DNA of 64,000 nt from assembly GCA_903839845.1 (NCBI GenBank), contig CAIMEA010000004.1, forward strand, positions 1-64,000, in the 5' to 3' direction. Source of the stretch: an uncultured Hyphomicrobiales bacterium. GTDB taxonomy: Bacteria; Pseudomonadota; Alphaproteobacteria; Rhizobiales; Xanthobacteraceae. Every line of letters starts with the position of its first letter. The stretch's first letter is position 1. Below are positions 60,937 through 63,246 of this stretch, in pieces. A program made the position numbers and the translations under genes. The notes under the pieces were generated by a model. That model was not told the origin of the DNA and did not search any database. It worked only from the letters and a program-made list of their open reading frames with translations.

Positions 60937-61519
60937 TTCAAGCGGTCCTGGTTATGGATTCCGACCGCAAAGACAGGTGGATCAAGTCAGCCCGTATACT
61001 GAACCGGCGCTTTGTTGGCTTGACCCGCTCGCGGCAAAAACGACACGTGAATTCCTGGCTTGGAACCTATGAAAACCGCATGGAGAATTGGTTTAATTAC
61101 ATCCAATTGCATATCGACACGTGAAATCAATAAACTGGATTGCCAAGCCGGCGCCGTCGCGCGGCTTTAACATCATAAATTCGGATCGGCGGTGTATCGC
61201 TACCGCTTGCCGATCGCCGCGATGACGCGCGGCAACACCGCCGCGGCGACACGGCTATGCGAAGCCGCGGCGGTCGCAACAGGTGCCGAAAGAATGCTGC
61301 GGCGCACAATTGTACCGGGTGCATCGCGGATTCGTATTCACATGCCGCCTTTGTTGTAATCTCGCGCGAGCGGTATCGATTTGCCGGCTGCCGATAACCA
61401 TCTCTAAATTGTTAAATGTCGATTTCTGTGTGTGATTCCGCGCATCAATGATAAATAAAACAATAATAAGTTCTCTTCTGGCGTGCGCGGAAGAGATGCG
61501 CACTTAGGGAGTGTTTTGT
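60937..61519. promoter_or_regulatory. 583-base control region between the chemoreceptor and the synthase fusion
   Basis: No credible gene. It holds two copies of CGACACGTGAA (61041-61051 and 61115-61125) with palindromic CACGTG cores 74 bases apart, and an inverted repeat AATTGG (61086-61091)/CCAATT (61103-61108) between them. The last 130 bases before the synthase are distinctly AT-rich (for example ATAAATAAAACAATAATAAG at 61450-61469), unlike the neighbourhood. Both flanking genes diverge from here. Confidence 0.5.
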
Positions 61520-63229
61520 ATGCGTGAGTTGAGAAGCGTTGCCGCGTGGCTGGCCGAGGGCACGCCGCACCAACTTGACTATGTCGAAACGCTGCCAAAT
61601 CCGACGTTTCGCGCCTACGGACAAGAGCAGGTCTCCTTCAGTAGCAATAATTATCTCGCGCTGTCGGCCAGCCCGCGGTTGATCGCCGCGGCGCATGAGG
61701 GCGTCACGCGCTATGGCGTCGGCAATTGCGAGTCCCGCTTGCTCGGCGGCAATCTCGAAATCTACGACGCCCTGGAGCGAAAAATCGCCAAGCTCAAGCA
61801 TAAAGAAAGCGCGGTGCTGTTCGCCACCGGCTATCTGACCAATCTCGGCGTACTGTCGTCGATACCGCGCACCGGCCAGTATGCGCGCATCTACGGCTAC
61901 CGCGCGCAGGGCGTCCATACTTACGCCTACTTCAGCGATGAATTCAATCACCTCAGCATCCGCGAAGGCATGCGCAACTCAGGCGCCGAACGCCACACCT
62001 ACCGCCACGGCGATCTCAATCATCTCGAAGCGCTGCTGCGCAAATCGACGACCAGCAGCCGCATCATCGTCACCGATGGCGTGTTCAGCCAGGACGGCGA
62101 CATCGCCGACCTGCCGGGCTTGCTGGCGCTGGCCGAACGTTACGACGCAATGGTCTATGTCGACGACGCGCACGGCACCGGCGTGCTTGGCCAGAACGGC
62201 GAGGGTACGAGCGAACACTTCGGCGTCAAGAGCGCGCGGCTCATCCAGATGGGCACGCTGAGCAAGGCTTACGGCGCCATCGGCGGATTCATCGCCACCG
62301 AAGCGGCGGTGGCCGAGGTTCTGCGGCTGTCGTGCGCGGCCTATGGCTTCACCTCAACGCTGCCGCCCGATCAAGCGCTCGCTGTCAGCGCGGCGATGGA
62401 TGCTGTGCTCGATGAGCCGCAGCGGCGTCAACGCCTGTGGGACAACCAGCGCTATTTCGTCTCGCGTATGGCCGAGCTGTCGTACAAGCTGGTATCGACG
62501 CAAACGCCCATCGTGCCGATCATGATCGGCGATGAAGCGCTGGCCGACACCGTCGCTGGGCGGTTGCGCGACGAAGGCATGCATGTCGACGCGGTAAAAT
62601 TTCCAGCGGTTTCGATGCACAAGGCGCGGCTGCGCATTCAGCTTAATGCCGGTCATACGCGCGCCCAAATCGATCATCTGGTTGATGTGCTGGACGCCAA
62701 CCAGGATCTTGCCCATGGCAAGCGGCCGGAGACAAAGCCGCGCGTCTTTGCCAGCACGACTTCCGGAGCCAACGATAATCGCCCCTGGGCAGTGGCGGCT
62801 TTCAGCGTGCTGTCGAATGCGGCTAAGGCGAATTTTCATCGCGTGCGCGGCGCAGCCGTGGACCTGGCCGGCAATATTGTCGCTTCATTGACGGCGCGGC
62901 TCCCCAGTCTCGGCGCCTCGCTCAACCTGGTCACCATCGCAAGCGCAATCCTGGTGGCGATCGACCTGTATTTCGACGTGCCGCATCTGGTATTCGCTTA
63001 TCTGCTGCCGATCGGCTTTGTCGCCGTCAAATTCGGCCGGTTCTCCGGACTTGTCGCAACGGTGGTGAGCTGCGCCTGTACAGCGCTCTTGTTGTATGAG
63101 CCGCTGTTCAGTTTCGTCATCGACGACCGGGTCGAGATCATCGAATTGGCCGTTTTCGCAGCCTTCGCGCTGGCGATCGTCTATGTCGCAAGCGCGGGCC
63201 AGGCCACGCCCGCTACCCGCCGCGCCTAA
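61520..63229 (+). CDS. Alpha-oxoamine synthase fused to a DUF4118 membrane domain
   Basis: 569 residues. Residues 1-395 are a PLP alpha-oxoamine synthase (kin of BioF, KBL, ALAS, SPT and CqsA): FSSNNYLALS (40-49), RLLGGNLEIYDALERKIAKL, DEFNHLS with H144, VDDAHGTGVLG (D215-H218), the Schiff-base lysine K249 in TLSKAYG and ARLRIQLNAGHT (369-380). It joins an acyl-CoA and an amino acid with decarboxylation. A linker (396-460) leads to a KdpD-like DUF4118 domain of four helices (about 468-560). An insertion at 115-138 is unusual for the family. ATG 61520 follows AGGGAG. Product unknown. Confidence 0.85.
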   Translation: MRELRSVAAWLAEGTPHQLDYVETLPNPTFRAYGQEQVSFSSNNYLALSASPRLIAAAHEGVTRYGVGNCESRLLGGNLEIYDALERKIAKLKHKESAVLFATGYLTNLGVLSSIPRTGQYARIYGYRAQGVHTYAYFSDEFNHLSIREGMRNSGAERHTYRHGDLNHLEALLRKSTTSSRIIVTDGVFSQDGDIADLPGLLALAERYDAMVYVDDAHGTGVLGQNGEGTSEHFGVKSARLIQMGTLSKAYGAIGGFIATEAAVAEVLRLSCAAYGFTSTLPPDQALAVSAAMDAVLDEPQRRQRLWDNQRYFVSRMAELSYKLVSTQTPIVPIMIGDEALADTVAGRLRDEGMHVDAVKFPAVSMHKARLRIQLNAGHTRAQIDHLVDVLDANQDLAHGKRPETKPRVFASTTSGANDNRPWAVAAFSVLSNAAKANFHRVRGAAVDLAGNIVASLTARLPSLGASLNLVTIASAILVAIDLYFDVPHLVFAYLLPIGFVAVKFGRFSGLVATVVSCACTALLLYEPLFSFVIDDRVEIIELAVFAAFALAIVYVASAGQATPATRRA

Positions 63230-63246
63230 CGCGCGGCGGCTAGCCG

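Follow-up and report, generated by a model that had tools for sequence, protein, structure and literature searches.

The window, a 64,000-nucleotide stretch of DNA from an uncultured Hyphomicrobiales bacterium, encodes a protein in which an alpha-oxoamine synthase (AOS) is fused at its C-terminus to a DUF4118 membrane domain. The gene (61520–63229, + strand) is an open frame of 569 codons with an ATG start and no internal stop codon, and a Shine-Dalgarno-like GGGAG lies 8 nt 5′ of the ATG (61507–61511, +). Both halves were matched by Pfam: Aminotran_1_2 at residues 36–391 (E 1.2e-45) and DUF4118 (PF13493) at residues 466–559 (46.5 bits, the gathering score being 28.4; E 3.4e-12). The catalytic domain comprises residues 1–395 (61520–62704, +) and is followed by a linker of about 70 residues (residues 396–460; 62705–62899, +) and then by DUF4118 (62900–63196, +), after which the protein ends. 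A fusion of this kind had been proposed in an original prediction made from the sequence, and the intact frame, the Pfam matches, the structural model and a second species carrying the same architecture all agree with it. A full-text search of open-licence papers turned up no description of an AOS joined to DUF4118. We give about an even chance to the reading that the protein is an accessory AOS, anchored in the inner membrane, that makes a lipid-like alpha-aminoketone. Its cytosolic pyridoxal-phosphate (PLP) domain would join L-serine or L-alanine to an acyl thioester in a decarboxylative condensation, and the four-helix tail would tether the enzyme to the membrane, into which a long-chain substrate or a lipid-like product may partition.

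The catalytic half has the family hallmarks for which it had been singled out, including K249. This residue (the PLP lysine), D215 and H218 (the DDAH motif), H144 (the stacking His) and R372 (the carboxylate Arg) are present and aligned with those of BioF, KBL, ALAS and SPT in all rows of the alignment, and they are intact in every aligned member of the clade described below. The AlphaFold model of the core has a pLDDT mostly of 80–98, and its nearest solved structure is ThAOS (PDB 7POA, 8S1Y; TM 0.92–0.93 by target length), which is alike in fold, shares 35–36% identity and has all the catalytic residues. The aligned catalytic residues and the predicted fold thus identify the core as a fold-type I PLP enzyme of the AOS family. 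ThAOS differs in having Val79 in place of Ser72, and in lacking both a 13–15-residue insertion and a membrane domain. Ser72 was recognized as the specificity position by its alignment with this V79, where the reference rows carry V in the wild type and A in the V79A variant (7POA/8S1Y). The position is a determinant of which amino acid is chosen; AONS and SPT carry Ser there, KBL carries Val and ALAS carries Thr (PMC11906848). Ser72 would therefore favor L-alanine or L-serine over glycine, and one of these two is most likely the amino-acid substrate. The specificity position is, however, no proof of the amino acid by itself, and the acceptance of several amino acids by ThAOS (PMC11906848) counts against taking it as such.

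Ser72 lies in the sequence NCESRLLGG (residues 69–77; 61724–61750, +), within a flexible loop; this signature is common to the clade, the variants being NSDSRLLGG in one member and ANCESR in two. A second trait is an insertion with a net length of 13–15 residues inside residues 119–135 (61874–61924, +), delimited by alignment and model geometry. It stands before the D-E-x-N-H motif in every row of the clade, as against nearly all references, and is missing from the BioF, KBL, ALAS, SPT, JqsA and ThAOS rows. The original prediction had pointed to residues 115–138; the net insertion is shorter than these 24 residues. In the AlphaFold model it immediately precedes strand 135–140 and the NH144 motif; it is a sequence neighbor of the active-site loop and could line the path of the acyl chain or CoA.

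In a maximum-likelihood tree, the clade is supported at 100/100, has a stem length of 1.34 and is separate from BioF, KBL, ALAS, SPT, ThAOS and JqsA. Two fusion proteins from Pseudolabrys are sisters in it (100/98), beside members from Bradyrhizobium and Hyphomicrobiales. The fusion protein stays below the cut-off of every NCBIfam equivalog model for AOS enzymes. BioF (TIGR00858) scores 362 bits against a cut-off of 426; this enzyme (AONS) is like the core in fold, catalytic residues and the specificity Ser, but the core falls outside BioF in the tree and no bio genes adjoin the fusion. The models for KBL and glycine C-acetyltransferase give 332/460 and 269/493 bits, and KBL has Val where the core has Ser72. 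ALAS (TIGR01821), with Thr at this position, reaches 253/338.6 bits. As judged from its sequence, the core belongs to an uncharacterized AOS clade that is distinct from the compared synthases of biotin, haem, threonine, sphingolipid and quorum-sensing metabolism. The expectation that it stands outside the housekeeping clades is thus borne out by both tree and cut-offs, which do not place it within BioF or KBL. The source genome carries its own bioF elsewhere, beside dethiobiotin synthetase-like and aminotransferase-like frames (neighbors assigned by sequence reading); this BioF stretch, partial as scanned, scores 414/426 bits. Two 5-aminolevulinate synthase paralogues, both above the curated cut-off, are also encoded in this genome (L003 on contig C194 and L004 on contig C102).

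We also considered that the protein might be a true serine palmitoyltransferase of a sphingolipid pathway that has come, by convergence, to be integral to the membrane as eukaryotic SPT is. Ser72 and the SR(F/L)LxG motif do resemble the Sphingobacterium enzyme, bacterial SPT (PDB 3A2B, 2JG2) shares the fold, the specificity Ser and an SRxLxG motif with the core, and a lipid product would account for an anchor. This identity nevertheless seems quite improbable, since the core is not sister to SPT, which forms a separate branch of the tree, since the bacterial SPT models (NF047599/600/603) yield 243/500, 291/640 and 201/670 bits, all far below their cut-offs, and since no acyl-carrier protein, ceramide synthase or reductase was recognized in the neighborhood. 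Eukaryotic SPT (SPTLC1/SPTLC2) is likewise an AOS held in the membrane, convergent at most with the fusion; it is a heterodimer with anchoring segments other than a C-terminal four-helix DUF4118. Characterized bacterial Spt is soluble while the eukaryotic enzyme is integral (PMC11087976), indicating that AOS chemistry does not need membrane anchoring.

About 28 further members of the clade, 55–66% identical to the core, were found; they were located by short peptide patterns, so that the counts are lower bounds, and gene calls in these relatives were made from frame composition. Their hosts are Zoogloea, Rhodocyclales, Sulfuricella, Massilia/Telluria, Rugamonas, Janthinobacterium, Bradyrhizobium and Hyphomicrobiales, together with Verrucomicrobiota, Planctomycetota and one Bdellovibrionales metagenome-assembled genome, a patchy distribution over Pseudomonadota, Verrucomicrobiota, Planctomycetota and Bdellovibrionota. 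The clade is also rare: scoring of the best candidates in each genome, at strict thresholds, found it in 1 of 397 genomes sampled from the order and in 2 of 398 from the phylum. PLSDB plasmids contained no copy, the best match being about 40% identical. Members that could be read as far as the stop codon have 390–451 amino acids and a C-terminus without DUF4118; the tail is absent from all of the approximately 28 members found besides the Pseudolabrys fusions. The clade, which has a signature in the active-site loop and an insertion that set it apart, looks like a synthase family that has yet to be characterized.

Genes next to the clade members vary (RND pump, citrate synthase, porin, acyl-CoA ligase, PTS, P450 and two-component genes), and no conserved partner was found among the neighborhoods examined. 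In Verrucomicrobiota (L037, 6784–9194; L038; L040), a gene of equal length lies about 100 bp upstream on the AOS strand; in L037 this gene is a citrate synthase. In Massilia/Telluria (L042, 8001–11292; L046), the gene directly after a tail-less AOS encodes an OmpR-type response regulator and the next one a HAMP histidine kinase, with short gaps between them. Homologous genes cluster in L043, L045, L047, L049, L050 and L052. In Zoogloea-type genomes (L026, 4579–9212; L027, L028, L032), the AOS is preceded by a gene for a PAS hybrid histidine kinase, the end of which lies 78 bp upstream.

Such arrangements recall enzymes of the CqsA/JqsA type, which are AOS enzymes that make signals with cognate kinases (PMC5080296), and raise the alternative of a diffusible ketone signal as the clade's product, made by a quorum-sensing-like synthase independent of CqsA, the tail being regulatory or related to export. 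The regulator and kinase right after the Massilia/Telluria enzyme and the hybrid kinase upstream of the Zoogloea-type one speak for it. Nevertheless, we regard it as rather unlikely. The kinases are of differing types, and most clade loci, including both fusions, have no adjacent two-component gene; the JQS gene order also differs, being synthase, sensor, regulator (PMC5080296). CqsA, LqsA and JqsA belong to the same enzyme superfamily but are very distant from the fusion core, which scores only 171 bits with NF005526 (cut-off 428) and lies outside the JqsA clade. Moreover, a true JqsA (521–544 bits, cut-off 428) is encoded separately in three genomes of Janthinobacterium and Rugamonas (G439, G440, G442) that also have a clade member, which shows that the clade enzyme is not CqsA. 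The original prediction had envisaged a signaling product; the kinship with CqsA/LqsA is not supported, nor is a link to the chemoreceptor gene nearby (see below), but such a product keeps some likelihood from the putative operons with two-component genes in some clade members. A broader version, that the clade is an unrecognized family of signaling synthases recurrently wired to membrane signaling modules, through kinase operons in Massilia and Zoogloea and through DUF4118 in Pseudolabrys, where the DUF4118 module would either pass the signal, an amino- or hydroxyketone, on to the membrane or gate its synthesis by membrane state, strikes us as improbable.

The tail was modeled alone, aligned with 17 DUF4118 relatives. 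AlphaFold predicted a linker helix at residues 422–459 and then helices at 461–485, 490–505, 507–525 and 537–559, and the hydropathy profile agrees with four membrane-length helices. The Pfam score above cut-off and these predicted helices together assign the tail to DUF4118; a Foldseek search of the model against the PDB gave no meaningful match. The even number of helices would leave both ends on the same side of the membrane, consistent with a cytosolic enzyme. With the DUF4118 of KdpD and of small stand-alone proteins, the tail shares the four membrane helices, a conserved P and the SFxIxD loop; it differs in its position at the C-terminus of an enzyme and in the absence of a kinase.

The original prediction took the tail for a sensor domain, otherwise known from KdpD-type kinases. 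In a tree of 28 DUF4118 domains, the sampled kinase-type domains form one clade (100/98) and the fusion tails, with a fragment from a third genome, another (99/96), which joins small kinase-free DUF4118 proteins of 120–180 amino acids at 94/84; the tree has a midpoint root and so shows a split rather than a dated origin. The domain is not confined to kinases. With no kinase after DUF4118, the protein is not a KdpD-type sensor kinase, and neither a kinase origin of the tail nor its reading as a sensor domain is supported by these sequences. The simplest reading of them is that a stand-alone four-helix DUF4118 protein became joined to the synthase, most simply once, on the Pseudolabrys stem. DUF4118, usually read as a sensor domain of kinases, would here be a membrane module on non-kinase proteins.

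Another reading is that the tail responds to the state of the membrane or to ions and thereby turns the synthase on or off, as is thought for KdpD. In kinases, DUF4118 sits in the sensory input region, and its conservation under selection in the fusion would suit such a role. We consider this unlikely, as the tail is nearest to kinase-free proteins, and the linker is poorly conserved with no signal-transmission domain recognized in it by Pfam. The unconserved linker speaks against tight coupling between tail and synthase.

The same architecture was found in a second species of the genus, Pseudolabrys HJP_bin35 (G033, locus L025), as a protein of 559 amino acids; the fusion was found only in Pseudolabrys, thus in a few soil bacteria. 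Compared with each other, the two fusions share 74% identity over the core, 35% over the linker and 53% over DUF4118, with Nei–Gojobori dN/dS ratios of about 0.24, 0.62 and 0.32, respectively; these are two-sequence estimates with dS near or above 0.8. The ratios for the core and DUF4118 indicate that both domains are kept by purifying selection, in contrast to a drifting linker. Possibly a third species has the fusion: G028 carries a DUF4118 fragment of the fusion-tail clade, within which its contig ends. A profile of the tail, searched against 392 sampled genomes of the family, ranked G000 (the source genome), G032, G033 and G028 at the top with 137–171 bits, and the next hit had 95 bits; the profile was built from these four themselves, which by itself accounts for part of the gap. 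An assembly artefact was rejected, because a second species has the same fusion at another chromosomal site with both halves under selection. The original prediction had named this, a core grouping with BioF or KBL, and a tail missing from close homologs as grounds for giving it up; the first two do not hold, but the tail is indeed absent from all close homologs outside Pseudolabrys. A non-functional or transient gene fusion with a tail that plays no role would fit the occurrence in two, possibly three, species and the nearly unconstrained linker. It appears very unlikely to us given that two species retain the fusion with DUF4118 halves 53% identical and dN well below dS.

A chemoreceptor gene lies divergently upstream of the fusion gene. 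In a related genome (G031), the same chemoreceptor and alpha/beta-hydrolase genes are direct neighbors, and the roughly 220 bp that separate them hold no synthase; the counterpart in the window is 2.04 kb long and bears the fusion, so that 61209–63245 is the segment replaced. G012 likewise has no room for the fusion at this site. In HJP_bin35, the fusion is flanked by the genes for trigger factor and NAD(P)H-hydrate dehydratase. These differences mark the fusion as an accessory gene with a history of gain, relocation or loss; the segment is either an insertion here or was lost in G031. The neighbors of such a gene are a poor guide to function, and the chemoreceptor in particular, present without the synthase in G031 and absent from the HJP_bin35 site, is not supported as a partner of the enzyme. 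A downstream partner is lacking, as had been noted. The GC content of the core (0.62, against 0.64 for the window) is near the genome average, and we therefore claim no recent foreign origin.

The accessory role in the membrane-anchored reading is favored by the source genome already having its own bioF and two ALAS genes, and the anchor by a second kinase-free C-terminal DUF4118 in the genus, in a lipid context (G032; see below). Against this reading stand the absence of any lipid-biosynthesis gene adjoining the fusion in either species, the roughly 28 clade members that presumably work without a membrane tail, the NCBIfam SPT models, the best of which falls far short of its cut-off, and the strong divergence of the fusions in the linker. 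If the enzyme is anchored, it would represent an independent bacterial route to the membrane arrangement of eukaryotic SPT, pointing to a lipid-like product.

The G032 protein (L084, 2299–3399, +) has 366 amino acids, with an N-terminal domain that matches no Pfam or NCBIfam family and was found in no other of 43 genomes of the genus, and a C-terminal kinase-free DUF4118. Its gene lies between those of a fatty-acid desaturase and a GT21/HpnI-like glycosyltransferase. This tail occupies a different branch of the DUF4118 tree and is thus a parallel, not a descendant, of the fusion tail. Stand-alone DUF4118 proteins of 154 amino acids (L173, 1390–2831; L174, 457–1896) adjoin a 284-amino-acid protein that resembles an LpxO-type hydroxylase by eye. 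Finally, G035 encodes a class-III aminotransferase (L083, 1565–2980, −), PigE-like by its best NCBIfam match, whose first approximately 50 residues are, in frame, 46% like the N-terminus of the AOS in the window. The gene is possibly a deletion relic of a former upstream AOS; it contains scaffold Ns, however, so that it may be a misassembly.
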